The notes under the pieces: generated by a model
Databases searched by the model: none
Told to the model about the DNA's origin: nothing
The model's input: the letters and a program-made list of their open reading frames with translations, nothing else
Shown here: positions 38,149 through 61,048 of the stretch, piece after piece
Layout of the letters: the number at the start of each line of letters is the position of its first letter
Position numbering within the stretch: position 1 is the stretch's first letter
Source of the DNA: a virus
IMG/VR virus record: IMGVR_UViG_3300010354_000091
Coordinates: 1 to 62,062 of that record
Length of the DNA: 62,062 nt
Reading direction: 5' to 3' (one strand)
Made by a program: the position numbers and the translations under genes

Positions 38149-38160
38149 TATTTATTTATG
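38149..38160 (-). promoter_or_regulatory. Two overlapping late boxes upstream of gp8
   Basis: Minus-strand CATAAATA (38153-38160) and AATAAATA (38149-38156) overlap the stop of the 4001-aa gene, only 12-16 bp before the gp8 ATG, closer than at other late genes. Confidence 0.45.
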
Positions 38161-41100: not shown

Positions 41101-44100
41101 CTGCATATAATGTTGATGGTAGAAGATCAGTTGTTCCTATTCCAGTTACTGATGTTGTTGCTATTCCTATCTTTGTTCCGGTTGTAGAATAATCAATTTT
41201 TTCTCCAGAAACAAAGAAATGATTTGGTATACTTATAGTATCTTTTTCAACATCTATGACATCAGTTGATGAACCATCAATTATTTTTCTAAAAATAGAA
41301 GAATCTTTATGTTTCAAATTAAAATCTTTTTTAGTTGATATCTGAGTTCCCTCAAAAGATAAACGAACTATATCCGATCTAATTCTAGCACTTTGAAGAT
41401 TTACTTCTATTGGATCTACTATTGGGGATATTTGAAGTGTTTTCTGGAATGTTCTAACCTCAACATCAATATTTGCATTTGGAGTAAATGTTAGTTGAGT
41501 TTCTCCAGAAGTACTAGCAGCTCCAATAGAACCAAGTTCACCCGACGATCCAATAATAGAATATTGTGCTACTTGTGGTGTATAATCTGATTGGTTAGAT
41601 AAGATAACTTCAGAAAACTGAATTTCACCATTGGTAGTATCAGTAACTTGTACGTAGTAATGAGCTCCATCTGGTGGATTTATTGAAGAAGTGCTAAATC
41701 CAGATATTTTGGTTTCTGTAGGAGAAGTAGAAGATGCAATTGAAACATAATTTGATGAAATTGTTGACTTATATAAATTATAAGTTGCAACACCAGTAAA
41801 TGAAGTATTTCCCATCAATATTGATAATGCCCTAACATGAACATCAATATTTGGATTTGGCGTAAAGGTCACTAAAACATTTCCAGTTGATGTAGAAACA
41901 CCTATTTGTCCAGCTATGCCAGATTCAAATGATGGACCTCTATCTCCAGAATCTATCTCTCCAAAAATTTCATAAAATACCTCGGAACCATTGTTAGCTA
42001 AACTAATTTCACCAAATTGAGATTGGCTATTAGTAGAATCAAAAACTGATAAGAGAATTTTTCCAGAAGAGTAACGATTCGTAGAAATAGAAATAATTGT
42101 ATTTTCTGTTGGTGATGCTGATGAAGATATTTGAACAGCAGTGCTTGCAAAACTAACAACATCACCAAGAGAAGAAGTTCCTATTCCAGTTATAGAATTG
42201 TTAGCAATTTCTGTAACAACGTTGGAAATATTATAACTATTGTATTCATATTTTCTTGGATAGAAAAGAACTTCACCATTGTTTCCAGATCTTCTAAACG
42301 AAAAACGTCCAAGATCATCGACGGTTTCATTTCTTCCATAGGCAGTTAGATATCCATTAGATCCATCATAAGTTACATTTACAATTATTATTTCTTTTTC
42401 ACCAAAATATCTTGTGTCTTTTATTAGAATGCAGAATTGTGCAGAATTATACTTAGTAACATCAAAAGTTCCTACTACACAGTAATTAAAGATACTGGGA
42501 GTATCATCAAACTCTGGTGAAATGTCATCAATTTCCAAAACTCTATTGGAAATAAACTCAGTATAATCCAATAATTTTACATTTGAAAATATAATTTGAT
42601 CCGATGTTAATTTGCCACCGAAAGATTTTACATTTTCCTTGACAAAATCAAAATCTTCATAACAATCAAAGTCTTTTTCATCTATTAAATCAACTAATAC
42701 ATCTACAGTTTCTTCAAGAGCACTTATTTCTAAATTTGATTGAGATTCAACCTGTAAATCTGAGAACTTTTTAAATCCTGCAGTGTGTGTTAGAGAATCT
42801 ACCTTATCACCCCATTTTTCAATAGGAACTTTTGATTTAATTGAATATGAGAAGTTTTGATAATAATCACCGTCTTGAAGAACTTGTAAAAATGTTCCTA
42901 TTTTTCCGGTTTCTTTAGAATAATCTTTTAATTTGTCGGTGGTAGAAGAAACGTTGAAAGATGACTCTGATTCAACTTTAGAAATTACAATACAACTTGT
43001 ATTAGATGCATCACCTTTCAAAATTGCACCGTCAGGAATATTTTCTAAAACTTCATTGATTTTTAGAATCTTAGATGATGGAATCCACTCAACTACTTTT
43101 GCAATATTTTTATTATTATATTTTACGTTTTCTCCAACACCATAAGTTATCTCTCCTGGGAAAAGAGTTGGTTCAAATTTTGGAAGATAACTTTCTGGGA
43201 CAATTCTTCCAAAAGAATTTGATGAGTTTTGAATTGAATTGTCACGAGAGAATTGTCCAGCAAAATCTGTTTCTGATAAAGTATAATTTAGAATCGGAGT
43301 ATTTCCTCCAATTGCGCTTGTTACTCCAGTTAAAGTGAATAATTTATATCCATAATTTTCAGAGTTAAATCCATCACCAATTGTAGATATTCCAATTCCC
43401 TCAACATATATTTTAGATCCAACAGAGAATGGGAAACTACTTGCTGTACTAAATCCTGTTGCCAAATTAACTGTAACTTGTTTTGTAGTTGGGTTGAATT
43501 GAATATTGGTTACTCCAATTCCATTTGTATTGTTTATAGAAACTATTTTAGGAGTAACTCCGTATAATGAATTTGTATTTTTTAGAATAGAAACCTTAGA
43601 TACTCTATTATTTTCTATTTCAGATTCTAATACAACCTCTGATTTAAGTTCATTTGTTGCTCCATCAAGAACTACAAAATTTGGTGGAGACGAATAATTT
43701 TTTCCTCCATATATGAGACCAATATCTTTTATGGAGAATAATTCTTCAACAAATAATCTTGTTGGAAATTCTGAAATTGGTTTTAACGTTGGATCAGTGT
43801 GATATTCAAATCCACCAATTTCAATTGGAGATTTAAGAATTTTTCCAATTGTTTTACTATTTGGTTGTATTACCGCACCACTTCCAGTGTTTGATCTCAC
43901 TGAAGTAATTCCAGGAATAACAGAATATTTGCCACCAAATATTGTTTTTATCCTAGAAATTGATCCTGTTGCAGATGATGAATTTGTGAAGTATTTCAAT
44001 TGAGACTCTGCTTTAGTATATGAATACTTTTCTGGTTCCTCTTTTAAACTGAAAGAAAATGTTGTGCTTCCAATACCAGAAATTACATGAGATGTGTTAT

Positions 44101-47100
44101 ACTTACTTGGATTTATTATAATTGAATTTGCTTCATAAACATCACTATCAACAATTATTTCTTCTTTCTCTTTTGAAAGATATGGTTTTCCAATGAGTGG
44201 TGTTAATTTATAATATAATTTATTAGGAACATTGTTATTGAGAGTAATTGATACACTAGCATCATTTGTTACTCCTATTACACCAGTCTTTTTAACTTCA
44301 AAATCTTGAGTTTTTAAAGTTGTTAAGAATTTTGTTGCAAAAGTAGAGTCTGTATAAAAATCAAAATCAAATGCTTTAACTAGAGATCCACCATCAATGT
44401 CTGCTAAAGAGGAATCTGACAAATCAAAATTAATTACATTTCCCCTAGTTGCTTTAATTTGAGGATTTACTTTTGAAAACTCATGGAAAACACCTGTGGA
44501 TGCTATACTTACATATGTGGGTTTATCAATTTGAGTTTGATAATATGAATTGGTCAACTTAAACTTATCATCATTTACTTTTACAATATAATAAATTTTT
44601 TCTGGTGTTAGTCCAAAAGCTGGATTGGATGAAGAGTATATAACTTTATCTCCCGTCTTTAATCCATGTGACTCTAAAGTTATTGTACTTGTAACTGTGT
44701 TAATTCCAATAGAAGAAACTCCCACAGGATCAATTACCAATCTTCTATTATATGGGTTATATTTAACAGTAACTGTTGTGCTAATTCCAGGAGAAATTTC
44801 TAACCTTATGGTATCATTTTCTTCTAGATTATGATTTTGGTCACAATTTACAGTGGTAGTTATTTTTTTAACTTGGGCAGTTAATTCTACCTCTTGAGTT
44901 TTAAAACTATGAATAGATCCTGATCCGATGGAAGAGAAATACAATAGATTTGCAGTTTCCCCTATTCCAACAAAACCGCCAGTAGACCCAAGACCAACCT
45001 TTGTTGTTGATATTCCAATTAAATCTTTGGTGAACTTTGCGACATATACTGAAGAACCATTTTCTAAAGTGGTGCTTCCTGCTCCAGTAGAAACTGAAAT
45101 TGATGTTCCTCCTCCATTACTATAAATTAATCTCTGTCCAGTTAAAAGATTATGATTTGGAAGATAAATTGATTGAAGTGGAATATATTGATTAATGAAA
45201 GTTGACCCATAAGAAATAGAAATCGTAGTTCCAAGACCAACAGTAACTACAGCAGGAACTCCTATAGCGACAGACTCTTTAGGGTTAAAATATAATGTTT
45301 TTTGAATATTAGTAAAGGAGTCTGTAGAGAAACCGGAGTTATACGTAAATCTTCTTGGATTTTCTACTACAACTGTTCCTACAGAATATGCATATCCGAC
45401 AGTTCCATCATGTCCTCTCTTAACATTTACTCTACCAAAAATGGGATCTACGCCAGTTACTAAGAGTTTTTCTGTTCCAACTCCAGTTTTTGTGATGCTT
45501 AAAACATCATTTGGTTGAAGTGTAGACGGATCTGTAAATTTGTAGAATTGTAAGAATGTAGAAATTCCAGTGGATCCAATTGTCCCTAATCCAACAGACA
45601 AGACAAAATTATTGCCTTTAACATTAATTTCATTAAATCCACCCAACTTAGAAAACTGTTCTGAAGATATTCCAATTATATTAACAAAGTCAAGGTTCTT
45701 TAATCCATGAGGAACAGTAGAAACACCTTGTATTAATCCAGAAGTTGTTAATATCTCAAGAGAAACATTGTTTAAAAGTGTCTTTTGTGAATCAATACTT
45801 GATATTCTAGATTCAAATATTTCTGATACCTGTGCGCTGGCATCATTTTCATCTGGATTAATAGAACTGAAAATAATAGAATCTCCAATTTTATAATTTA
45901 ATCCAGGAAAATCTATTGAAAAACCATCTACAGATCCTCTTTGTATAGAAGAAATTCTAGAAGATCTGTTTACAGTTTTATTTGGTTGAGTAATTCCCCT
46001 ATAGTCACTGTTTGAGAGATTAAGTTTGTATGGATACGTATTTCTTATATAATTGTCTTGTGTAAAATCAACATCGTTTTGATTTGAAGATGGTAATGAA
46101 TTATAATTAAGTAATTTTGATTTGAACTTATTTCCTATTAAGTATGGGAATTTGGGTCTTCTATAATTTAAATAAGAAGAATCATATCCATTTTCTGAGG
46201 TTTCTATGGAAGCAAAATATGCATAAGTTCCATTTGGAAATTCTGGTGTTTTGCAGAATCTTCCATTATGCTCATCCAAATCACCATTATTTGTAAACTT
46301 ATAATCTTCTACAAAAAATCCAGATTCAAATCCTGGTGGACGATCACTTTCTAAAACTTGCTCATAACCAGATCTCTGTGGTCTTATTGTGCCCCCAACT
46401 TCTCTTTCATATCCATATGGTCCATAAATGGGATTTCCATCATATGCCCATCCAATTATGGGAGAATGGTTTGTTGAAATTTTTTCATTTGTATCATAAA
46501 TCAAATCATAATCATTATAGTTATTTGTTCCATCGGTATTTTTTGATGGCAAATTCAACCTCAAATTTCTTGGTGCAAATAAACAAGTATATTGCAAATT
46601 ACTTGAAATTCCGGAAGTTATAAATCCATCATCATTTTTTGAGAACGTATTCTTATATTTTTCTGCAATATTTACTGTCCACTTTTTAATATTGGACTTG
46701 AATTTTGCATCAGAACCACTGGATTTTACTTCTATTTCACTTTTACCTGTAGTGAACCCAACTCCACCATTTTCAATTTTAAATGACTTAATAACACCAT
46801 TTTCGATAATTGGTGCGGCTTTTAAATAAGATCCATCTCCAACTATTTCTAAGTTTGGTGAAGAGTTATAACCACTTCCACCACTAATCACCAGAATACT
46901 AGAAACGGATGATCCTTTTATGATTGGTTTTACAATAGCGCCACTTCCAGATTTTAGTTCTATATTTGGTTGTCTATCAAATCCAATAATGTCAGTAGAT
47001 CCATAACCACTTCCATTTGACGTTAATTGTATTGAAGTGATTTCACCTCTAAAAACTGGATTTACTATTGCATTATAATTTTGAGATAAAGTAAATCCTA

Positions 47101-50100
47101 CCCCAATATTTCCTACGACAGAGACTGTTATCTGTGGATAGTTGAATATATGGTTTCCAAAACCTTTGGATGTAAAAACAGCATATTGATTGGTTTCATA
47201 GTTTGTTGTTGATGGATATGTTCCTATTCCAGCAGACGCCAATCTAAAATTGTTGTCATCTATTTTAATTACATAATATTTTTCTGATGTGCTTAGTCCA
47301 GAAATAGTTGTTCCATCGCAAGAATAAGTTATTAACTCACCAGAATTATAACCGTGATTTGGAATATTGATATAACTACTTGAAGTAATAATTCCGGAAG
47401 TATTTGCTATTTTCTTTTTATTTTCATATCCACTTCCTTCAGAAATCACATTAATGTGTGATATTATATTTTTCTTCTTGGTAGCTCTAAATCTTTGAGT
47501 TCCACTTCCACCTTCAATCAGATTAATTGGATTTAGTGAGTTTAAAGAATCTTTTTCATTATTGTGAATTTTAATTCTCTTTTGATCAACAACAGATACA
47601 AAATAAGAAGAGTTATCTTGCAAATATGTTTTTGTAGTAGTATCACCAGACGTTGATCCTATACCAATTTTTTGACCGTTGAATGAATCATATACAATTT
47701 CTTCCCCATTATTAAATTTGTGGTCAGTGTTAAAACCAATAATGTTATCAGTAAAGTTGAGGTATAGTCCCCCACCAGTGGATATTCCAGCAGCGTTAAA
47801 ATATAATTCATGATCAACTTCACGAAGTTTTGCAACTGCAGATGCACCTGATCCATTTCCACCACTAATTACTATTTTTGGAACATCAACATATCCAAAT
47901 CCAGAATCTAATATCTCTATTCTTTTTAGAGATCCAGAAACTGAACAATTTCCAGTAGCTCCTATTCCAAAGGAATCTGTTATTTCTAAGACAGGTGGAT
48001 TTATAACATCATAATCAGTTCCACCATTAAGAACATCTATAGAATTGATTGGTCCATAATGGACAACTTCATTTGATTTATAGTTGAGAATTTCAACTCC
48101 ATTTGCCAGAATTCCTATTCTCTTTCCAGGAGGAGTTTCCGTTGAAGTTTCTAAAGTGCTTCTAGAAACTTCTATCTTTCTTACTAGTTTTTGAGAATCT
48201 AAAATCTTACCATAATTTTCTGAAGGAACTAAAGTAAAGGATTGTGAATTGGAATCGGAATTATAAAAACTATAGAATATATCATTAGTAATATTTGATG
48301 CACTCAATGCCAATTTGATTGTATCATTGTCAATTCTTTTAACTACGAAATATTTTTTATTTTCTTTTGAAAATGCTTCGGAGTTTGAAATAAAAACTAC
48401 CTTGTCTCCACTATAAAAGTTATGATTTTGAATTGTTATTTCAGTTATAGCAGTGAGACCAGAAACTGAGACTGATTTGGATCTATTATCCGATTGTATT
48501 TCATATGATGGGATTGATGGAGAAGTAACAACTAGTGACCCATTTAAATCATAAACGTCCTGAACATTTGTCGTATAAGTTCTTTCTGAATTATTAAAGG
48601 TGTTAATAATTCTTCTTATTGCATATTCATTTGAAAATTCACTTAGATTATTTTGATCTATGTTTGCAGAAACTCTTATTTTTTTATCTGTTAATATTTT
48701 TTCTACTTTTCCTAATATTGTTGAATTGTCATTCTTATTGACAAATTCTATCTGATCATTTTTGTTTAGTTGATGATCGTCATAGGTTGAAATTTCAAAA
48801 TAAGGATTTGTATATCTTATGTTTTCAATATTAAATGATGTTGAAGTATTAAAAATCCAACTATTAAACAATGCATCACTTTTTTCTTTTATAAGTCCAA
48901 TACTCTTTACGTTTACTGGATCACCAACACTATAGTAATAATTATTTTCATGTTCTAAATTGAGATTCTCAATAACTCCTGTCACACGAACATTTATTTT
49001 TTGATTATTTTCATCAAATCCATATGTTTCATAATTAGATGCTACAACATCATCACCAATTGATTCGGTAGTGATCCCAATACAATCTAAAAATTGGTTA
49101 TTAGTTTTGCTACCATAGGATATGGTATTCCCATTAATTAATAGAGATCCTTTTTCTTCAAATCCTATTGTAGAATCTACAATGAGTGAATTTTGTAACT
49201 TTGAAACGATTTTAGTTTTTGGATGCGATTTAATATTGCCAAAAATTGTTCCAAAAACTTTAATATCTCTATCATATCCAAAATCTACATCAAGTGAGTA
49301 GTATGGTTCATTTTCATAATAGATAAGTTCTACGTCAGAAATTGATCCATATGAAGTTATAGTTTCAGACTCTGTTTTTATCTCTTGAAAAAGAGTTCCA
49401 CCAGATAATTTTAAAGGATCTCCACTTATTGGTTTTACGATAATTGTTTTTACAGGTCTATAGTCATTATCAGAGGGTTTAAACAAATAATCTTGTGGTT
49501 TTATTGTTTCACTGTTTTCATTGAGTAGACTCTTAAATAAAATCTTATTTGATGTAGGAGTTCCCTTAGAAGAATAAAAATCTTTTGATTGGATTAAGAA
49601 GTTTTGGGAATTTATATTTGAGTATAAATCAAAATCTTCAAATCCTGGAAGATATTGTGCCTTTAGTTTTTTGAAAAACTCTTTTAAGAATAAAGTACTT
49701 AAATTTTCTACCGTTGATCCAGAGGAATGTATATCAATTTCTGAAGATTCGTAACTAACCTGTTTACCAGCAATATTATAAGTTGTAATTCCACTAAACC
49801 CTCTTATGCACCCATTAAAACTTGTACTCCCCAAGGAAGTATAAGTAATAATTTCATCATTTATTTTTAGGAGACCATATCTATCTGGCCATCCATTAGT
49901 ACTATTAACATAAATTGTAGAATCACCATAATCTACATCTTGAGAAACTCTAGTATTGCTTTCTCCAATAATTTCCGATGTATATGTTCCTACTTTCAAT
50001 AATTGATCAATATTTTGAACTATACTCAGTGGTGCTGAGAAATGTTCTTGAGATTCGTAGTATTGTTTTAAAAATGGTCCAAAAAGTGGATACTCTTCTT

Positions 50101-50161
50101 GGAAGTAAAGGGGAACTTGACCTTCTACAAGGTTTTTGGCAGAAATTCTAGTTTCAATCAT
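38156..50161 (-). CDS. Giant baseplate wedge protein in the gp7 position (4001 aa)
   Basis: The largest ORF by far. It lies between gp6 and gp8, exactly the gp7 position in T4 (1032 aa), though no clear gp7 sequence is visible. The N-terminus (MIETRISAKNLVEGQVPLYF, FGPFLKQYYESQEHFSAP) is the conserved start of cyanophage wedge-like giants. Residues about 1228-1342 form a YHYH-type domain: GWAYDGNPIYGPYGY, then LDEHNGRFCKTPEFPNGTYA and FPYLIG. At least ten GGSGY-type beta repeats are scattered along the chain (SGSGYRPGIQ, NVGSGYTTTNPPTI, NGGLGYTSTNPPQI). No stop or frameshift interrupts the 12 kb frame. Confidence 0.82.
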   Translation of the reverse strand: MIETRISAKNLVEGQVPLYFQEEYPLFGPFLKQYYESQEHFSAPLSIVQNIDQLLKVGTYTSEIIGESNTRVSQDVDYGDSTIYVNSTNGWPDRYGLLKINDEIITYTSLGSTSFNGCIRGFSGITTYNIAGKQVSYESSEIDIHSSGSTVENLSTLFLKEFFKKLKAQYLPGFEDFDLYSNINSQNFLIQSKDFYSSKGTPTSNKILFKSLLNENSETIKPQDYLFKPSDNDYRPVKTIIVKPISGDPLKLSGGTLFQEIKTESETITSYGSISDVELIYYENEPYYSLDVDFGYDRDIKVFGTIFGNIKSHPKTKIVSKLQNSLIVDSTIGFEEKGSLLINGNTISYGSKTNNQFLDCIGITTESIGDDVVASNYETYGFDENNQKINVRVTGVIENLNLEHENNYYYSVGDPVNVKSIGLIKEKSDALFNSWIFNTSTSFNIENIRYTNPYFEISTYDDHQLNKNDQIEFVNKNDNSTILGKVEKILTDKKIRVSANIDQNNLSEFSNEYAIRRIINTFNNSERTYTTNVQDVYDLNGSLVVTSPSIPSYEIQSDNRSKSVSVSGLTAITEITIQNHNFYSGDKVVFISNSEAFSKENKKYFVVKRIDNDTIKLALSASNITNDIFYSFYNSDSNSQSFTLVPSENYGKILDSQKLVRKIEVSRSTLETSTETPPGKRIGILANGVEILNYKSNEVVHYGPINSIDVLNGGTDYDVINPPVLEITDSFGIGATGNCSVSGSLKRIEILDSGFGYVDVPKIVISGGNGSGASAVAKLREVDHELYFNAAGISTGGGLYLNFTDNIIGFNTDHKFNNGEEIVYDSFNGQKIGIGSTSGDTTTKTYLQDNSSYFVSVVDQKRIKIHNNEKDSLNSLNPINLIEGGSGTQRFRATKKKNIISHINVISEGSGYENKKKIANTSGIITSSSYINIPNHGYNSGELITYSCDGTTISGLSTSEKYYVIKIDDNNFRLASAGIGTYPSTTNYETNQYAVFTSKGFGNHIFNYPQITVSVVGNIGVGFTLSQNYNAIVNPVFRGEITSIQLTSNGSGYGSTDIIGFDRQPNIELKSGSGAIVKPIIKGSSVSSILVISGGSGYNSSPNLEIVGDGSYLKAAPIIENGVIKSFKIENGGVGFTTGKSEIEVKSSGSDAKFKSNIKKWTVNIAEKYKNTFSKNDDGFITSGISSNLQYTCLFAPRNLRLNLPSKNTDGTNNYNDYDLIYDTNEKISTNHSPIIGWAYDGNPIYGPYGYEREVGGTIRPQRSGYEQVLESDRPPGFESGFFVEDYKFTNNGDLDEHNGRFCKTPEFPNGTYAYFASIETSENGYDSSYLNYRRPKFPYLIGNKFKSKLLNYNSLPSSNQNDVDFTQDNYIRNTYPYKLNLSNSDYRGITQPNKTVNRSSRISSIQRGSVDGFSIDFPGLNYKIGDSIIFSSINPDENDASAQVSEIFESRISSIDSQKTLLNNVSLEILTTSGLIQGVSTVPHGLKNLDFVNIIGISSEQFSKLGGFNEINVKGNNFVLSVGLGTIGSTGISTFLQFYKFTDPSTLQPNDVLSITKTGVGTEKLLVTGVDPIFGRVNVKRGHDGTVGYAYSVGTVVVENPRRFTYNSGFSTDSFTNIQKTLYFNPKESVAIGVPAVVTVGLGTTISISYGSTFINQYIPLQSIYLPNHNLLTGQRLIYSNGGGTSISVSTGAGSTTLENGSSVYVAKFTKDLIGISTTKVGLGSTGGFVGIGETANLLYFSSIGSGSIHSFKTQEVELTAQVKKITTTVNCDQNHNLEENDTIRLEISPGISTTVTVKYNPYNRRLVIDPVGVSSIGINTVTSTITLESHGLKTGDKVIYSSSNPAFGLTPEKIYYIVKVNDDKFKLTNSYYQTQIDKPTYVSIASTGVFHEFSKVNPQIKATRGNVINFDLSDSSLADIDGGSLVKAFDFDFYTDSTFATKFLTTLKTQDFEVKKTGVIGVTNDASVSITLNNNVPNKLYYKLTPLIGKPYLSKEKEEIIVDSDVYEANSIIINPSKYNTSHVISGIGSTTFSFSLKEEPEKYSYTKAESQLKYFTNSSSATGSISRIKTIFGGKYSVIPGITSVRSNTGSGAVIQPNSKTIGKILKSPIEIGGFEYHTDPTLKPISEFPTRLFVEELFSIKDIGLIYGGKNYSSPPNFVVLDGATNELKSEVVLESEIENNRVSKVSILKNTNSLYGVTPKIVSINNTNGIGVTNIQFNPTTKQVTVNLATGFSTASSFPFSVGSKIYVEGIGISTIGDGFNSENYGYKLFTLTGVTSAIGGNTPILNYTLSETDFAGQFSRDNSIQNSSNSFGRIVPESYLPKFEPTLFPGEITYGVGENVKYNNKNIAKVVEWIPSSKILKINEVLENIPDGAILKGDASNTSCIVISKVESESSFNVSSTTDKLKDYSKETGKIGTFLQVLQDGDYYQNFSYSIKSKVPIEKWGDKVDSLTHTAGFKKFSDLQVESQSNLEISALEETVDVLVDLIDEKDFDCYEDFDFVKENVKSFGGKLTSDQIIFSNVKLLDYTEFISNRVLEIDDISPEFDDTPSIFNYCVVGTFDVTKYNSAQFCILIKDTRYFGEKEIIIVNVTYDGSNGYLTAYGRNETVDDLGRFSFRRSGNNGEVLFYPRKYEYNSYNISNVVTEIANNSITGIGTSSLGDVVSFASTAVQISSSASPTENTIISISTNRYSSGKILLSVFDSTNSQSQFGEISLANNGSEVFYEIFGEIDSGDRGPSFESGIAGQIGVSTSTGNVLVTFTPNPNIDVHVRALSILMGNTSFTGVATYNLYKSTISSNYVSIASSTSPTETKISGFSTSSINPPDGAHYYVQVTDTTNGEIQFSEVILSNQSDYTPQVAQYSIIGSSGELGSIGAASTSGETQLTFTPNANIDVEVRTFQKTLQISPIVDPIEVNLQSARIRSDIVRLSFEGTQISTKKDFNLKHKDSSIFRKIIDGSSTDVIDVEKDTISIPNHFFVSGEKIDYSTTGTKIGIATTSVTGIGTTDLLPSTLYAVKIDDNLVKFAETAEKALASNPVVFDIQTVGVGQSHIFSSNYKSNSKAIISIDNVIQNPVVSTARTTSLLQDIEAINSFSLLTFENTDGFYAKDLIKINDEFLIITDVGLGGTNKVYCRREQLGTLSTPHLSGAVITRYEGNYNILNDTIYFVESPHGEELNSESRSSFQGRVFLRSAPVGSSNTAYYENQIFDDISNQFNGTDSTFTLKSNGQNVTGIVSTNSVSAGILLINNIFQKPKYPATGIAQTYTYEVVENSGISSVIFSGNPVGLTTNGIIGPMKYDINSAGIPRGGIIVSVGSTQGYGFQPLVAAGGTANVSIAGTIQSVSIGNSGSGYRPGIQTSITVSVATSTGKIAIGTASAVNGHIVSISVTNVGSGYTTTNPPTIIIDSPLNYENIPLIYSPSNVGVGTEATIDIQVGYGNSVIEFNLSNSGYGYSVGDKITFNIGGNAGIPTDPSISFRPFELTVSEVFNDKFNSWYPGQFVVLDDFNGEFDGSKKLFTLKENGVISSFVTGEGSPLELEQNLLVFINDILQIPNESYIFNGGTKIEFLEAPKQGDNVKVLFFKGSDADVKSVEISPTVKEGDRLTITDRFRKGRYSEKTRVVSEINSVDSVFTSSYFGPGITSESSIVRTVEWCKQREDLYLDEILISKSRKDLNSNIFPNTTIISPVGVASTSIFVQNVRPLFNYYPEILPQGKQSVKIISQEQKLGAIATAVVSVAGSISQINILNGGLGFSTAPIVSISSPSIGTTAVATCSIGFGTVSSVIVSNGGLGYTSTNPPQILIEQEPVKFDILTDVNYEGDHGIITGIGTTSISGVSTGIYFDFYFPKNSIFRNASLVGSSSSISGIQTGYYFVVYESTVGNGLTSLNSNGNILGIGTTFIDNVYQSFDVKNVQSNALGYGSTTDIVRVTTSVTSYNNISGIGSQFIGMFSWGRIYNFNRASSDNEYGVDLSNGLSGITTSALIVRTTPIRSLYTS

Positions 50162-55437: not shown

Positions 55438-55695
55438 TCAGAGATCTGCGATGACTTCGTTGAGTTCAATACGGTTCAACTTAGAGTCTTTCCACTTAAC
55501 ACCATCGGGAGTAGATTTGCAGTTAAAAGAACATGCTTCCAGTGCATCTACGAAGTCTTGGTAATCATCACACTGCTGAGCAATGCTATAGAAACCGTAG
55601 TCATTTTGAATCCAGAGTGCAACATTCCAGGTCTCATAATTCGTCCAACCGTTATACTCAGTATCGGTCAGATTTGCTTGGTAGGTGACTGTCAT
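55438..55695 (-). CDS. DUF7249-type protein (NGWTNYETWNVALW)
   Basis: 85 residues. Contains the very characteristic NGWTNYETWNVALWIQNDYG block (residues 15-34) found in many cyanophages and some cyanobacteria, followed by a helical CDDYQDFVDAL and an acidic end. Function unknown. The leader (TATAAGGACAACCACCGAAC) follows copy 1 of the repeated intergenic element. Confidence 0.8.
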   Translation of the reverse strand: MTVTYQANLTDTEYNGWTNYETWNVALWIQNDYGFYSIAQQCDDYQDFVDALEACSFNCKSTPDGVKWKDSKLNRIELNEVIADL

Positions 55696-55715
55696 GTTCG
55701 GTGGTTGTCCTTATA

Positions 55716-55746
55716 CAATAGGGACAATTTAAAGGCCCCCCATGTT
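55716..55746 (-). repeat. Repeated intergenic element, copy 1
   Basis: Minus strand: AACATGGGGGGCCTTTAAA then TTGTCCCTATTG. Lies between the 55-aa gene stop and the DUF7249 gene. The GTCCC arm pairs with GGGGC through one G-U. Confidence 0.75.
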
Positions 55747-55748
55747 AG

Positions 55749-55916
55749 TTACTCTACCTGCTGCAACCTATCAACAAACTCATCCAAATATTCAGTAGGA
55801 TCATGACCTAACTGTGCGACCCTTTCTAACTCATTGAAGATCGTTGTTAAGTGTTTATAAAAGGGCACACGCATTCTGTCAGTTTTGCCCAGATATTTGT
55901 AGTTTGGAGGTCTCAT
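55749..55916 (-). CDS. 55-residue small protein downstream of an inverted repeat
   Basis: ATG at 55914-55916, stop at 55749-55751. MRPPNYKYLGKTDRMRVPFY, then a helical acidic C-terminus (DPTEYLDEFVDRLQQVE). No SD: the ATG abuts a perfect 15-bp inverted-repeat arm that contains the end of the putative leader. A late promoter lies 25 bp upstream. Function unknown. Confidence 0.62.
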   Translation of the reverse strand: MRPPNYKYLGKTDRMRVPFYKHLTTIFNELERVAQLGHDPTEYLDEFVDRLQQVE

Positions 55917-55966
55917 AGTTTTGTCCCAAAATACCCCTGATATTTATACCTTTTTGGGACAAAACT
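55917..55966 (-). promoter_or_regulatory. Late promoter box inside a perfect 15-bp inverted repeat
   Basis: Arms AGTTTTGTCCCAAAA (55917-55931) and TTTTGGGACAAAACT (55952-55966) are exact complements with a 20-base spacer. The spacer carries minus-strand TATAAATA (55941-55948), 25 bp before the ATG. A transcript initiating in the spacer would lack the upstream arm. Confidence 0.75.
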
Positions 55967-55980
55967 CAAAACCCTTGGTA

Positions 55981-56196
55981 TCACTCAAAAACGTCACAGT
56001 AGATGTCATAAAGTTCTCGAAGTTTGTCCTCTGAATAGATTACCAACTGTGCGAGTTCTTCAGATGTAATGGTGACAGGATCTTCACCCGCCCACTGAAT
56101 CAAATCACGCAGACAGATTGATTCAGCAACTGTGTCTCCATTAAAGATCTCTTCTAGGAGAAACTGTGATTCTTCAGTAATGCTCTGAGTGACCAT
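55981..56196 (-). CDS. 71-residue acidic small protein
   Basis: It starts MVTQSITEESQFLLEEIFNG; helical, strongly acidic (LRELYDIYCDVFE end), one Trp (LIQWAGEDPVTIT). It is the first minus-strand gene left of the plus-strand GIY-YIG gene and is preceded by a sigma70-like promoter (TTGACA-18-TATACT). Such small acidic proteins are candidates for host-takeover factors, but no family was recognised. Confidence 0.66.
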   Translation of the reverse strand: MVTQSITEESQFLLEEIFNGDTVAESICLRDLIQWAGEDPVTITSEELAQLVIYSEDKLRELYDIYCDVFE

Positions 56197-56220
56197 TGAT
56201 TAACCTTTGAGTGCTTTGTT

Positions 56221-56250
56221 AGTATATATCGGGAGGGTTGTATTTGTCAA
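56221..56250 (-). promoter_or_regulatory. Sigma70-like promoter, minus strand
   Basis: -35 TTGACA (56245-56250), 18-bp spacer, -10 TATACT (56221-56226), about 25 bp before the 71-aa gene. Confidence 0.72.
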
Positions 56251-56298
56251 GGGGTTTATGAGGTCTTCTGTGCGGTCCTGGGAGTGTCTCTGAGGGGG

Positions 56299-56327
56299 TT
56301 GCATTTCTCTGAGGTTTGTGTTATAAT
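56299..56327 (+). promoter_or_regulatory. Sigma70-like extended -10 promoter, plus strand
   Basis: TTGCAT (56299-56304), 17-bp spacer, TGT-TATAAT (-10 at 56322-56327). Drives the plus-strand GIY-YIG gene; divergent from the 56221-56250 promoter. Confidence 0.72.
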
Positions 56328-56406
56328 GCGCGCACTTTAATCACCACCAAACTACACAAAATTAACCTTTTCAAAATAAATATCACAAAGAAGCACTTTC
56401 ATCATT

Positions 56407-57171
56407 TTGGCATACATTTACTCCATAACAAACAATATAAATCAAAAGCAATACATTGGTTTAACACGCCAGGCAAATCCTTATGATAGATGGAAACAAC
56501 ATTTAGAAGATAGTAAGTATAACTCACAAAGTCCTATTCATCGTGCCATTCGTAAATACGGAACGCAGAACTTTAAGTTTAGAGTTCTTGAAGAATGTGC
56601 AGACAATAAGGTAGAAGAAAGAGAGATACATTACATTGCAAAGTGTAATTCATTTTATGAAGGATACAATGCTACTTTAGGTGGAAACATTCGTTATGAT
56701 ACAGATGCAAAACCCATAACACAATATACTAAAAAAGGAGAAAAGATAAGAGACTTTGCATCACTTAGAGATGCAGCAGAGTTTATAGACAAAGAACAAA
56801 GTGCAATCAGTAGATGTGCCAATGGTGAAAGATTTTCTGCTTATGGGTATAGATGGAGTTGGAAAGGTGACAAATTACCTTTACTTCAAAAGAGCAAGTA
56901 TTGTTGTCCTTATTATGGTTACAATAATAAAGGTGAGTATAAGGAATGGGCCTCAAGTGTGGAAGCTGCAAAAGAAATTAAGTGTGACAGAAGAAGTATA
57001 ACATCATCTGCAAATAGTAAGAAAGAAAATAAACTTCAATGTCGTGGGTGGTATGTATTCAAAATGAGTGATGGTAAGATAGATTTTGATGAAATTACTT
57101 TTGCAAAAAAGTATAGACCAACAAGTGAAAAGGCACGAGAAATGGTAAAAATTAGATGCCAAAAAACATAA
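56407..57171 (+). CDS. GIY-YIG homing endonuclease with NUMOD-like tail
   Basis: 254 residues; start appears to be TTG at 56407-56409 (no ATG fits before the catalytic motif). GIY-YIG domain: YIYS (3-6) and YIGLT (16-20), Arg29 in YDRWKQH, Glu73 in EREIHYI, GYNATLGG (86-93). Two NUMOD1-like DNA-binding repeats follow (ITQYTKKGEKIRDFASLRDA near 104; GYNNKGEYKEWASSVEAAKE near 170). The gene runs against its neighbours and has its own sigma70-like promoter, as free-standing (Seg-type) mobile endonucleases often do. Confidence 0.88.
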   Translation: MAYIYSITNNINQKQYIGLTRQANPYDRWKQHLEDSKYNSQSPIHRAIRKYGTQNFKFRVLEECADNKVEEREIHYIAKCNSFYEGYNATLGGNIRYDTDAKPITQYTKKGEKIRDFASLRDAAEFIDKEQSAISRCANGERFSAYGYRWSWKGDKLPLLQKSKYCCPYYGYNNKGEYKEWASSVEAAKEIKCDRRSITSSANSKKENKLQCRGWYVFKMSDGKIDFDEITFAKKYRPTSEKAREMVKIRCQKT

Positions 57172-57176
57172 AAAAA

Positions 57177-57196
57177 AGAGGGACACCACTCCCTCT
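57177..57196 (-). terminator. Terminator at the junction with the plus GIY-YIG gene
   Basis: AGAGGGA / TCCCTCT with a 6-base loop (on minus GTGGTG); on minus it runs into eight or more T. It ends the 57290-57622 unit. On plus it would follow the GIY-YIG gene but lacks a T-run. Confidence 0.8.
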
Positions 57197-57289
57197 CTTA
57201 TACCCAACCACTTTGACTTTTAGAAGAATTATCTACACTTACAAAGTCACTTTCTTTTTGTAGATGAGGCTAACTTCTTCCTCATTAAA

Positions 57290-57418
57290 TTACACTAATT
57301 CAGCAGGACTTCCACAAGAACGATAAAACTCAATCATCCGTTTTGCTTCATCTAATGTAGAGAAACTTTGCGTTCTCCATTGTTGCTGATAAGGTGTAAA
57401 GTATCGGATGGTGAACAT
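57290..57418 (-). CDS. 42-residue conserved small protein (MFTIRYFTPY type)
   Basis: ATG at 57416-57418. MFTIRYFTPYQQQWRTQSFS, then TLDEAKRMIEFYRSCGSPAE. A compact beta-helix pattern with W and R at the turn, familiar from cyanophage small genes of unknown role. Last gene before the terminator. Confidence 0.68.
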   Translation of the reverse strand: MFTIRYFTPYQQQWRTQSFSTLDEAKRMIEFYRSCGSPAELV

Positions 57419-57430
57419 TTTAGTTTTGAT

Positions 57431-57622
57431 TCAATTAGAGTGAAGAATGTCTAGCATTTGTTGGTGATAGTGGTCTGCCTCACGAACTACATTTGCTGCC
57501 TCTGATACATCTTCAATCTCATACTTTGTCATCTCCAGAGAGTGAATCACATTAGAGAGAAGTTCAGTCAGAGCATCAATCTTGTCTGTATCAGTCATCT
57601 TGTGAGTTGTGGTTGTGCTCAT
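57431..57622 (-). CDS. 63-residue acidic helical small protein
   Basis: Starts MSTTTTHKMTDTDKIDALTE; a second ATG at codon 9 is possible. Mostly helical and acidic (LEMTKYEIEDVSEAANVVRE). Copy 2 of the repeated element ends at its ATG. Function unknown. Confidence 0.65.
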   Translation of the reverse strand: MSTTTTHKMTDTDKIDALTELLSNVIHSLEMTKYEIEDVSEAANVVREADHYHQQMLDILHSN

Positions 57623-57649
57623 ACTACAGGGACAATTTGAAGGCCCCCA
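57620..57649 (-). repeat. Repeated intergenic element, copy 2
   Basis: Minus: GGGGGCCTTCAAATTGTCCC then TGTAGTATG. The usual AACATG before the G-run is replaced by AAGGGT, where the HNH gene region begins. Confidence 0.72.
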
Positions 57650-57652
57650 CCC

Positions 57653-57690
57653 TTGTTTGCTTTCTAAAATGTAGTATAATAAATACTACA
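57653..57690 (+). promoter_or_regulatory. Promoter with embedded inverted repeat, HNH gene
   Basis: -35 TTGTTT (57653-57658), 16-bp spacer, -10 TATAAT (57675-57680). The -10 sits inside TGTAGTAT / ATACTACA arms (8 bp each, 57670-57677 and 57683-57690, 5-base centre), an operator-like symmetry. Confidence 0.58.
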
Positions 57691-57704
57691 AAGTTAGGTA
57701 CTTA

Positions 57705-58202
57705 ATGATGAAAGAACATCCAATCTACAATAACATTTTAGTCGATGAAGATGGAAGCATTTATAGTACAGGAAAGAACTACAAATCACCTCGCAAACTG
57801 AAAGAAAGTTTAGATGAAAGAGGTTATGCAAGAGTGAGAGTACAAGTTGGATTGTATAATCAAAAGTTGAGAGCAGTACATAGATTAGTAGCAGAAACTT
57901 ACTTGCCCAATCCAAACAATCTAAGTGATGTTCATCATAAGGATGACAACCCAAGAAATAACAATTTGGATAATTTAGAGTGGGTCAGTCATAAACAAAA
58001 TTGTGAACTTTCAAGAGATAACATAGGAAGGAACAAAGCAGCAGAATGGAAGATCTTGCATATAGAAAGTAAAGAAACCTTTGTGATAAAGAACCTCGCT
58101 AAATGGTGTGAAGAAAATAATCTTAATAGATCAAATCTTCATAAGACATTAACAAAGGTAAATCACCACAAAGGTTATAAGATCTTAGAGAAACTCAATT
58201 AA
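57705..58202 (+). CDS. HNH homing endonuclease (NUMOD4 + HNH_3)
   Basis: 165 residues. N-terminal NUMOD4-like part with DEDGSIYSTGKN, then the AVHRLVAETYLPNP-DVHHKDDNPRNNNLDNLEWV block with catalytic-type His77/His78 and Asn90, then a DNA-binding helix-turn tail (FVIKNLAKWCEENNLNRSNL). Size and order fit phage free-standing HNH endonucleases. It faces the local gene order, has its own promoter, and overlaps the 3' end of the convergent 104-aa gene by 8 bases. Alternative start at the second ATG (57708). Confidence 0.88.
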   Translation: MMKEHPIYNNILVDEDGSIYSTGKNYKSPRKLKESLDERGYARVRVQVGLYNQKLRAVHRLVAETYLPNPNNLSDVHHKDDNPRNNNLDNLEWVSHKQNCELSRDNIGRNKAAEWKILHIESKETFVIKNLAKWCEENNLNRSNLHKTLTKVNHHKGYKILEKLN

Positions 58203-58509
58203 GTCTCATACCACTGAAGAAGGGGATTGTCTGTCCATTATAAACAATGAACCACTCAAAGTTCTTGGAGAAAATCCTTTCACCTTCCATACCAAATGCT
58301 TGAAGAAGTGAGTTAATTCTGCTTTTAGTTGTAGCAGAACGCCAACCACCATCGAACAATTCCATCCAGGTTTCGCCAATGCGAGCAATCAGATTTCCGT
58401 GCAAATAAACATCAGAAACGTTACTGCAAGAGATAACTTCAGAGTTTGCAATCTTCAGATCTTTGTTGTCTTTGATTGCTTCGATGATTTGCTTTTCAAT
58501 CTTACGCAT
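58195..58509 (-). CDS. Conserved cyanophage protein (MRKIEKQIIEAIK type)
   Basis: 104 residues; the familiar MRKIEKQIIEAIKDNKDLKI start, DVYLHGNLIARIG and TTKSRINSLLQAFG in the middle, and FNGQTIPFFSGMRLN-like end (here YNGQTIPFFSGMRLN). Conserved in many cyanomyoviruses, function unknown. Its leader (about 22 bases after copy 3) is A/C-rich with no SD. Confidence 0.78.
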   Translation of the reverse strand: MRKIEKQIIEAIKDNKDLKIANSEVISCSNVSDVYLHGNLIARIGETWMELFDGGWRSATTKSRINSLLQAFGMEGERIFSKNFEWFIVYNGQTIPFFSGMRLN

Positions 58510-58530
58510 TGTGGTTTGGGGTTGTGGTTA

Positions 58531-58563
58531 CACTATAGGGGCAATTTGAAGGCCCCCATGTTT
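58531..58563 (-). repeat. Repeated intergenic element, copy 3
   Basis: Minus: AACATGGGGGCCTTCAAATT then GCCCCTATAGTG. Perfect GGGGC/GCCCC arms. The ATG is about 22 bases further on. Confidence 0.75.
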
Positions 58564-58566
58564 GTG

Positions 58567-58704
58567 TTAGCAATAGATGTCAGGTCCAGTTACATCGCAA
58601 AACTCAAGCAGAAAGTAATCAATACTTACACCAACTTCTTGTGCTTCAGTATAAAACTCTTGGTATTGTTCACCGTTGAGAATAAAGAAATCAGTTTCAA
58701 TCAT
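58567..58704 (-). CDS. 45-residue acidic small protein
   Basis: ATG at 58702-58704. MIETDFFILNGEQYQEFYTE and an end LLEFCDVTGPDIYC. Overlaps the stop of the upstream secreted-type gene by 8 bases. Unassigned. Confidence 0.58.
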   Translation of the reverse strand: MIETDFFILNGEQYQEFYTEAQEVGVSIDYFLLEFCDVTGPDIYC

Positions 58705-58825
58705 GAGGGGCAATGATGTCTGCTATGGTGTGTAATGTTTGGGAAGTAGTGTTACGAACTCCTGGTGAGAGAGTTAATGCAACGACAAAGATTAACAGAA
58801 TTGTTTTCACTTTCTGTCGTCTCAT
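58697..58825 (-). CDS. 42-residue protein with N-terminal hydrophobic signal-like segment
   Basis: ATG at 58823-58825, directly after the upstream TGA. MRRQKVKTILLIFVVALTLS is a basic head plus a hydrophobic core (residues 8-20), then a polar tail. Looks like a small membrane or exported protein. Its start abuts the preceding stop and its end overlaps the next start, so it is translated in tandem. Confidence 0.6.
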   Translation of the reverse strand: MRRQKVKTILLIFVVALTLSPGVRNTTSQTLHTIADIIAPHD

Positions 58826-59056
58826 TCAATCGAATCGAGAGGATACATCAGGACCAGGATTCTCAAGGTGTGCAACACTATCTGCTACACCTTCAGCAGT
58901 TAGTGCAAACTGTACTTTCTGACCGTTGTAGTAAATGTCAAAGACAGATTGAACATAAGGTGTCAGATTGCCTTCAGAATCCCATGCATTTCGTGTATGG
59001 GAAGTCTCAACGATTTCGTAGACTTTAGAGGTGAGAGGTGAAGTGTAGGTCATCAT
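58826..59056 (-). CDS. 76-residue small protein
   Basis: MMTYTSPLTSKVYEIVETSH; then DIYYNGQKVQFALTAEGVAD. Mixed alpha-beta. ATGATG at the start directly follows copy 4 of the repeated element; no SD. Function unknown. Confidence 0.65.
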   Translation of the reverse strand: MMTYTSPLTSKVYEIVETSHTRNAWDSEGNLTPYVQSVFDIYYNGQKVQFALTAEGVADSVAHLENPGPDVSSRFD

Positions 59057-59087
59057 ACTATAGGTGCAATTTCAAGGCCCCCATGTT
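59054..59087 (-). repeat. Repeated intergenic element, copy 4
   Basis: Minus: AACATGGGGGCCTTGAAATT then GCACCTATAGTATG. TATAGT directly abuts the ATG; one mismatch in the second arm. Confidence 0.78.
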
Positions 59088-59095
59088 AGCAACTC

Positions 59096-59275
59096 TTACA
59101 GTCCGTTGAAGTATTCGTGAAGTTCTGAAAAGTATTGCTCTTTAGTCTCAAAATGACGCCCATAAATGTCACAAGGGAACGTGTGCTTTTGAAACATCGT
59201 AGATGCAACTTTTATATCTTGTTCATCATAACCCATCTCAATCAGTGTTTGAACGTAAGGATTAGTGTGTGTCAT
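59096..59275 (-). CDS. 59-residue small protein
   Basis: Preferred ATG at 59273-59275, one base after the upstream stop; a longer reading from 59320 lies inside the neighbour. MTHTNPYVQTLIEMGYDEQD, then a helical end KEQYFSELHEYFNGL. Function unknown. Confidence 0.62.
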   Translation of the reverse strand: MTHTNPYVQTLIEMGYDEQDIKVASTMFQKHTFPCDIYGRHFETKEQYFSELHEYFNGL

Positions 59276-59276
59276 T

Positions 59277-59459
59277 TCAGTTACCGAAGAAAGCATCAAA
59301 CTCATCTGCGATCTGATCAATCAGTTCATCAGTTGCATCAAGGTCAAATACATCACAAACCCAATCTACAGCATCATTTAGGTCTGTGTGATTGTTGCAC
59401 ATAAACTCACGAAGTGCAGGTGCAATTTGATCTTGGAAGTCGATTTGAGTGGTATTCAT
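59277..59459 (-). CDS. 60-residue acidic small protein
   Basis: MNTTQIDFQDQIAPALREFM; very acidic second half (DLDATDELIDQIADEFDAFF). TATAGT of copy 5 abuts the ATG; no SD. Function unknown. Confidence 0.66.
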   Translation of the reverse strand: MNTTQIDFQDQIAPALREFMCNNHTDLNDAVDWVCDVFDLDATDELIDQIADEFDAFFGN

Positions 59460-59490
59460 ACTATAGGGGCAATTTCAAGGCCCCCATGTT
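59457..59490 (-). repeat. Repeated intergenic element, copy 5
   Basis: Minus: AACATGGGGGCCTTGAAATT then GCCCCTATAGTATG. Perfect GGGGC/GCCCC arms. Confidence 0.8.
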
Positions 59491-59756
59491 TAATTCACTG
59501 TGAAATAGGTTCCGTTTGCCTTATTCAGTGTGATAAGTTTCTCTTGAATGTCATTGAGTCCATCTTCATCTTGTTCATCAACTGCTTCACATTCAGTCCA
59601 ATCATCTAACCGAATCGCACCCGATTCACTGATGGGAGTATAATACAGTGTGCCTTCATCATCAATCGAATAGGCACAACCATGACCTTCACAAGTGTAG
59701 ATAATCATTTCGGTGGTTTGAGTCATTTTTGCAGTAGGATTAGGAAGGGAAATCAT
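59490..59756 (-). CDS. Small protein with CEGHGCAYSI motif
   Basis: 88 residues (78 if the ATG at 59726, MTQTTEMIIYTCEGHGCAYS, is used). The Cys-x-Gly-His-x-Cys unit followed by SIDDEGTLYYTPIS looks like a small metal- or redox-type knuckle seen in cyanophage unknowns. Acidic C-terminus. The first ATG lies 3 bases after the upstream stop. Confidence 0.62.
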   Translation of the reverse strand: MISLPNPTAKMTQTTEMIIYTCEGHGCAYSIDDEGTLYYTPISESGAIRLDDWTECEAVDEQDEDGLNDIQEKLITLNKANGTYFTVN

Positions 59757-59759
59757 TTC

Positions 59760-59930
59760 TCAGTCAACAACAGAGTAACAAGCAACAGAGGAAGGAATCC
59801 CACTTAGTGATAACGAACCATTGCGGGCATCGCAATAGTCTTGTGCCTCATCTTCAGAGTAGAAAGGTCCAATATACTCAGGAGAATTGAGTGCATTAGA
59901 ATCGAATCGGACGGTGAAGGTGTTTGTCAT
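59760..59930 (-). CDS. 56-residue small protein
   Basis: ATG at 59928-59930, abutting TATAGT of copy 6. MTNTFTVRFDSNALNSPEYI, then GPFYSEDEAQDYCDARNGSL. Mixed alpha-beta. No SD. Function unknown. Confidence 0.64.
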   Translation of the reverse strand: MTNTFTVRFDSNALNSPEYIGPFYSEDEAQDYCDARNGSLSLSGIPSSVACYSVVD

Positions 59931-59961
59931 ACTATAGGTGCAATTTCAAGGCCCCCATGTT
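59928..59961 (-). repeat. Repeated intergenic element, copy 6
   Basis: Minus: AACATGGGGGCCTTGAAATT then GCACCTATAGTATG. Identical to copy 4 in the shared part. Confidence 0.8.
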
Positions 59962-60423: not shown

Positions 60424-60452
60424 ATAATAATACAAAAAGTTTAATTTGTCAA
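60424..60452 (-). promoter_or_regulatory. Near-consensus sigma70 promoter abutting an ATG
   Basis: Minus: TTGACA (60447-60452), exactly 17 bp, TATTAT (60424-60429). The ATG (60415-60417) begins 7 bases downstream of the -10, where +1 is expected. No SD. Confidence 0.75.
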
Positions 60453-61048
60453 GATAAGTGGGACACTATTCTTGCTGTCCATCCTTTATGTTGTCTGTAT
60501 TTTCCAGTAATTACACTATGTAAACATCCAGCATTTAATCCATTGTCTCTACAAAATTGTTTAAGGTTATTTGATTGATATTGTCTTCCATCTGGACTTG
60601 TAAAAATATAATTATATTTACACCTCAACTCAATTTGTTCTTTTGTCAATTTAACTCCTAGTCTTGAAGGTGGTTTAATGTTTTTTCTCTTTAATGTATC
60701 TCTAATTTTATTTTTTATCTCTCCAGTAAATGTGTAATTCTTTCTTCCTTCAAATAAAGCATTTTTATGCTCATCACTCAATGGTCTCCCTGATGTTCCC
60801 TCTCCACCATTAGTTTTGTTTCTTAAAATACCTGTCCCCAAGTCTTTTCTACCTAAGATAGAAATCATATAAACTTCATGCTTAAATGCTTCTTCTTCTA
60901 TTAGGTTATTTTTTAGAATTAAAACTCTTTCTTTTTTAGGAACACCTACAGTGTGATTTTTATCATATAAACGATAATTTTTCCCCTTACCAATATAATA
61001 AGGAGTTCCGTCTTCACGCAAATATGCGTAAGTGTAATAATTAGTCAT
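60449..61048 (-). CDS. GIY-YIG endonuclease (SegE-like)
   Basis: 199 residues. GIY-YIG motif: YTYAYL (5-10) and YYIGKGK (17-23), Arg26, and a conserved KTNGGEGTSGRPLSDEHKNA segment (about 83-102). The C-terminal helix-turn part (RQYQSNNLKQFCRDNGLNAG) is a DNA-binding module. Unlike the other two mobile endonucleases it runs with its neighbours. A TATAAATA late box lies 23 bp upstream, so it appears plugged into late transcription. Confidence 0.88.
   Translation of the reverse strand: MTNYYTYAYLREDGTPYYIGKGKNYRLYDKNHTVGVPKKERVLILKNNLIEEEAFKHEVYMISILGRKDLGTGILRNKTNGGEGTSGRPLSDEHKNALFEGRKNYTFTGEIKNKIRDTLKRKNIKPPSRLGVKLTKEQIELRCKYNYIFTSPDGRQYQSNNLKQFCRDNGLNAGCLHSVITGKYRQHKGWTARIVSHLS

Follow-up and report, generated by a model that had tools for sequence, protein, structure and literature searches.

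The element that recurs ahead of small genes in the window studied here is, with a probability that we put at roughly 80%, a phage promoter of neither the sigma70 nor the late type, which would act through a modified host RNA polymerase and whose specificity box has been switched repeatedly. The window, i.e. the whole stretch of 62,062 nt that was analysed, is a 62-kb virus record that belongs, by its scaffold, sheath, terminase and baseplate proteins, to a T4-like cyanophage with relatives among the Kyanoviridae. Elements of the same class are present in more than 200 viral records, where they are located before early-region genes of T4-like cyanophages. The signal is repeated and consists of two parts, one of which, the upstream box, is specific to the genome; start codons avoid a zone directly behind it, and at orthologous genes of other phages sigma70 promoters are found in its place. 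From these patterns we infer that RNA is initiated at +1 rather than cleaved there, that this happens early or in the middle of infection, and that a trans-acting factor takes part.

According to the mechanism that we propose, the promoter would span about 36 bp (-32 to +4) and transcription would begin at the purine of T-RTRA. With an ATG at +1 the mRNA would be leaderless; otherwise at least 14 nt of C/A-rich leader, devoid of a Shine-Dalgarno motif, would precede the start codon. The host RNA polymerase, in a phage-modified state, would recognise the conserved core (-16 to +4), and a putative phage factor the box (about -17 to -28); the specificity of this factor would differ among phage genomes and thereby leave all promoters of one genome with one box.

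Six copies in the window and their counterparts in other phages

Between 55.7 and 60.0 kb, the minus strand contains six copies of GGGGGCCTTNAAATTG (exact matches at 55725, 57633, 58542, 59067, 59470 and 59941 of the window), each followed at a fixed spacing by a TATAGT-like block and a purine. The longer form of the block was found 0 times in shuffled sequence and the reversed-pattern control gave 0 matches, which bears out the first-pass annotation in its claim of six minus-strand copies of a block beyond chance; the TATAGT and the missing Shine-Dalgarno of these copies are likewise as it described them. Copy 1 (59927-59961, with box AACATGGGGGCCTTG at 59961-59947 and core AAATTGCACCTATAGTATGA at 59946-59927) has its predicted +1 at 59930, the A of the ATG of a presumably leaderless 56-aa gene (MTNTFTVRF..., 59760-59930, minus strand as all genes behind the copies), and this start is identical in the orthologues of G016, G018 and G025. 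The predicted +1 of copy 2 (box and core at 59456-59490, +1 at 59459) and of copy 3 (box and core at 59053-59087, +1 at 59056) is also the start of a gene, of 60 aa (MNTTQIDF..., 59277-59459) and 76 aa (MMTYTSPL..., 58826-59056), respectively. Leaders are predicted behind copy 4 (58528-58562, core end GTGTAA, +1 at 58531), where 22 C/A-rich nt precede the start at 58509 of a 104-aa gene (MRKIEKQ..., 58195-58509), and behind copy 6 (55711-55745, core end ATTGTATAA, +1 at 55714), where 19 nt precede the start at 55695 of an 85-aa gene (MTVTYQAN..., 55438-55695). Copy 5 (57619-57653, box AGGGTGGGGGCCTTC, +1 at 57622) also abuts an ATG, but the probable true start of its gene (MTDTDKIDALTE..., 57431-57598) is the in-frame ATG at 57598 (+24), since this matches the beginning of the S-SRM01 orthologue (MTDAQKLEALT, 78.9% identical); the gene thus probably carries a 24-nt leader. 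The four abutting ATGs that had been taken as starts therefore probably serve as such at 59930, 59459 and 59056 and not at 57622.

The DNA upstream of copy 5 is antisense to an HNH_3 homing-endonuclease-like gene (57705-58202, plus strand; Pfam PF13392), an insertion between copies 4 and 5. A GIY-YIG/NUMOD1 gene (56407-57171, plus strand) lies antisense in the early cluster among the copies, and both genes are likely homing endonucleases. Close to copy 1, a 199-aa ORF (60449-61048, minus strand) has a weak GIY-YIG-like match under the Pfam cut-off. Elsewhere in the window, a 4001-aa ORF (38156-50161, minus strand) stands behind a gp6-like baseplate gene, a location that in S-SM2, S-SRM01 and Syn9 is occupied by very long baseplate-initiator or fibre ORFs.

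Scanning viral contigs with the window block retrieved numerous matches in other contigs, and a core-only scan gave at least 120 stretches. The collected set comprises at least 573 distinct sites from at least 125 records, with P-TIM68 added separately; records holding at least two sites number at least 210. In related contigs the block extends to +4 (RTRA) and occurs in 6-18 copies per contig, always on a single strand, as it does in 64/64 records with at least four sites. In an alignment of 123 copies the block reaches from about -32 to +4, and GGGGCCTT, AAA and TG are invariant in it, followed by a pyrimidine tract, TATAGT and RTRA; the core consensus is AAA[G/T]TG-YYYY-TATAGT-RTRA, terminating at the purine (+1). 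Short-query blastn with the window's own version of the element gave no matches; the commoner core version retrieved the isolates S-SM2 and SynMITS9220M01, which have the same core as the window's relatives and a different upstream box. P-TIM68 has 13 copies with its own box and a variant core. Variant cores, e.g. AAAGTGTAACCCTAGTG and AAAGTGGATCAGTAGTGTGA, also stand behind the usual kinds of box (L443, L459, L463, L467, L452), and in these lineages the core itself drifts. Four complete or near-complete genomes without the element (S-SRM01, S-CREM1, Syn9 and G001) contain no copy of the core. The genes behind the block are not always small, as the first-pass annotation had described them: in other genomes they include a helicase of ~410 aa, a phrog_455 protein of ~300 aa and an ORF of 755 aa.

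Start codons and the predicted 5' end

Of the 535 sites followed by an ORF of at least 40 aa, 255 have the first in-frame ATG at +1. In another 271 it comes at +15 or later, with a peak of these leadered starts at +15 to +18 and a range up to about +58. Only nine starts fall at +2 to +14, and for 9/9 a later in-frame ATG is available. Position -1 is T in 569/573 sites and position +1 is A or G in all 573. Because starts fall at +1 or at +15 and beyond, never clearly between, we place the mRNA 5' end at +1, and about half of the element's messages seem to begin at the start codon itself. Several of the +1 starts that have no nearby in-frame alternative are fixed by orthologues, including those of the MKNTHLEHPED, MTHNNPYVQ and MNINDLYDS genes. 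In G018 and G025 the start of the MNINDL gene coincides with +1, and in G020 it lies 26 nt downstream of +1; the MTHxNPYV gene starts at +1 in G025 and in the window has no element directly before it; MKNxHLxHPE is also the orthologue start in S-SRM01, S-CREM1 and P-TIM68, where it is leadered. Leaders consist of A and C to 71%, and a Shine-Dalgarno-like motif precedes 15/271 leadered element genes versus 6/21 late genes of the window. The earlier idea of Shine-Dalgarno-independent translation keeps its relevance for messages with leaderless or C/A-rich 5' ends, though not by way of the RNA stem that had been proposed for it.

These starts also bear on the possibility that the element is a sigma70 promoter of the ordinary kind, in which TATAGT would be the -10 hexamer and the box an activator site. 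TATAGT equals TATAAT at 5/6 positions, and to be such a good -10 hexamer counts against our promoter reading, yet its position clashes with the +1 starts. In a sigma70 promoter (TTGACA/TATAAT, 17 nt apart) +1 lies about 7 nt downstream of the -10 hexamer, whereas at 255 sites the start codon follows TATAGT immediately. Transcription from about 6 nt past the +1 of the element would miss the ATG of these 255 genes, and 78 of them have no in-frame ATG, GTG or TTG within the next 19 codons as an alternative start. Besides, there is no -35 at the expected spacing, and the hexamer itself varies widely while TAGT-RTRA and AAA.TG do not. Although the S-SRM01 and Syn9 orthologues use TATAAT-type promoters, we regard an ordinary sigma70 promoter as very improbable for the element. 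A likeness to sigma54 promoters (GG...TTG) was dropped, as the box is variable at -24 and cyanobacteria are not known to possess rpoN.

Orthologous genes of Syn9, S-SRM01 and S-CREM1 have sigma70-type (TATAAT-type) promoters in the same interval, mostly together with an upstream palindrome. In the early genes of these phages the palindrome, TGTGACA...TGTCACA or GACA.TT....AACTGGCACA, precedes a TATAAT-like -10 by tens of nt. It was read in S-SRM01 (L026, 50-100 kb), Syn9 (L027) and S-CREM1 (L028); the Syn9 intergenic gaps were read by eye, as a de novo motif search was overwhelmed by coding repeats. The palindrome is frequent in W01, W02, G001, G003 and G008, near the control level in G000, G016, G020 and G021, and has 2-3 matches in G017-G019. 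On the whole, the window clade has few copies of it, whereas several relatives that lack the element have many. In place of the element, the window's late genes have ATAAATA, and a capsid-protein-like gene inside the early cluster has ATAAATA/TAAATA.

A box that belongs to the genome

The upstream box of about 12 nt is near-constant inside one genome and different from genome to genome: GGGGCCTT in the window, GGGGGGTCG in S-SM2, TTACTCACC in SynMITS9220M01 and GTTAGTTACC in P-TIM68. Across the 64 records with at least four sites, box identity is 12.1/14 within a record and 6.75/14 between records; it is 12.13/14 for different genes of one genome and 6.86/14 for orthologous genes of different genomes, and in 557 orthologue pairs at least 70% identical the boxes are alike at no more than 7/14. 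The box follows the genome rather than the gene, and a genome-wide change of this kind is typical of DNA-binding specificity. By average-linkage clustering the boxes fall into 8 to 11 classes, varying with the cut. Lone copies with the box of a foreign genome occur in otherwise uniform genomes (G033 at 49298 and 51021, L244 at 8983, L338 at 7949, L318 at 3976) and look like genes acquired together with the donor's promoter; those of G033, L244 and L338 are as expected of recently acquired genes.

The same comparison weighs on an RNA hairpin of GGGGC and GYYYY that would guide Shine-Dalgarno-independent translation, as suggested by the first-pass annotation. Pairing of the arms (G-C, G-U) is possible at 93/116 distinct sites of the GGGGCC genomes. 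However, the stem exists at 0% of sites in the TGTTAGTAACCTCT, AACTAGGATCGTCC and TAACTGAGCCACTT classes and at about 10% in others, while the pyrimidine arm is retained; for the TGTTAGTAACCTCT-type boxes, which form four stem pairs at 0% of sites, this arm is 99% conserved. The C-rich arm is present as described, but as a pyrimidine tract (YYYY) rather than a fixed complement of the G arm, and the compensatory changes that a stem should leave are missing from the G arm. The distance to the start is not fixed either, with starts at +1 or at any position between +15 and about +58, and there is no match to an Rfam family. Since the core persists with boxes that are unable to pair, the hairpin idea fails, and we give it hardly any credence.

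More serious is RNA processing, whereby a host or phage ribonuclease would cut a polycistronic early transcript at the T-RTRA junction and generate the same 5' ends. The start-codon exclusion zone requires a 5' end at +1, not initiation, and it counts against the promoter reading that cleavage at this nucleotide would yield an identical pattern; the elements are also positioned between co-directional genes. On the other hand, a 12-nt box that is constant across unrelated genes and different in orthologues points to DNA-binding specificity more than to a nuclease, the element gives way to sigma70 promoters at orthologous genes, and copy 5 is located downstream of the antisense HNH DNA. Some copies even lie directly behind intrinsic terminators, which were found immediately upstream of three related copies, although such terminators are rare overall and not strongly enriched (4/123 sites versus 23/2000 random positions). 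A processing signal explains less than a promoter and seems to us improbable.

A promoter with a genome-specific box raises the matter of its reader. S-SM2 encodes the usual gp55, gp33 and gp45. One candidate, SSM2_065 (S-SM2 49522-50103), belongs to a family of basic proteins of about 190-230 aa, with an N-terminus (MKTFxQFxxEA) resembling the capsid-targeting sequence of T4 internal proteins, and has a T4-late-type promoter despite its location in the early cluster. It matches 10/50,697 phage records, near-full-length in S-SM2, SynMITS9220M01, AG-345-O18, AG-345-E15 and P-TIM68; such a protein is encoded in L225, G016-G019, G024, G026 and G027, and the family was found only in phages of the element class. 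Loci chosen by SSM2_065 alone contain the core in 73/80 cases and a variant core in most others. As a cognate factor it was rejected: 57.5% of the pairs at least 60% identical have different boxes (rho 0.08). Since its sequence does not track the box, the protein is a class marker rather than a demonstrated specificity factor, and its association with the element could be explained by shared ancestry, both being in the same cluster. A second family, fam153, does track the box but occurs also in phages without the element, and among the families compared none both tracks the box and is confined to the element class.

Relation to known promoters and possible consequences for cyanophage regulation

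T7-like promoters (T7, T3, SP6, K11) combine a CTATAG-like core near the start with a phage-specific region and are repeated on one strand. The element is similar in its conserved core and a specificity region constant within the genome, but its variable box lies further upstream (-17 to -28). Moreover, T7-like phages encode a single-subunit RNA polymerase, whereas PF00940 found none in the complete genomes of S-SM2, SynMITS9220M01 and P-TIM68 (positive control phage T7, E=9.9e-110). T4 middle promoters, with a MotA box at -30 and a sigma70 -10, are used by the host RNA polymerase together with a phage factor. The element resembles them as a two-part signal of T4-like phages before non-late genes, probably also served by host RNA polymerase plus a phage factor. 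It differs in lacking a MotA box and a TATAAT at -12 to -7 (the invariant blocks in the logo of 123 sites are others), in a box that ends at about -17 and varies among related genomes, and in starts at +1. The T4 late promoter (TATAAATA, gp55) occurs in these genomes alongside the element; in the same logo the element shows no TATAAATA some 10 nt ahead of the start.

A novel early regulatory element was reportedly described from the transcriptome of cyanophage Syn9 by Doron and colleagues in ISME J in 2016. Ours occurs in the same phage type, in the same early gene cluster and at least partly at the same orthologous genes, but has neither the TGTGACA...TGTCACA palindrome nor the TATAAT-like -10 of the early promoters of Syn9 and S-SRM01. 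S-SM2 was sequenced by Sullivan et al. (2010; PMC3037559), who searched for sigma70, T4-late, Pho and NtcA promoters; the excerpted text of that article does not mention an element of the present class.

The start positions, the single strand per genome, the sigma70 promoters at orthologues and the genome-wide box support both an unusual promoter and a regulon, which the first-pass annotation had listed among its options. The early timing and the host-takeover role that it assigned to the genes would follow from their position and their orthologues. Going further, we lean slightly towards the view that T4-like cyanophages without an RNA polymerase of their own use a fast-switching code, in which a leaderless-start core is read by the host enzyme and the box is rewritten genome-wide when the cognate factor changes. 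Related phages would thus keep separate early regulons, and acquired genes would be recognisable by a foreign box.

If our promoter reading is true, a large and mostly uncultured group of cyanophages, among them the isolates S-SM2, SynMITS9220M01 and P-TIM68, would start its early (or early/middle) transcription from this element, and the precise +1 would allow the prediction of transcripts. This poses the question of what phage protein recognises the box and by what means dozens of promoters come to change in concert. In addition, phage fragments could be binned by their boxes, which differ from genome to genome, and recently transferred genes could be picked out in the same way.
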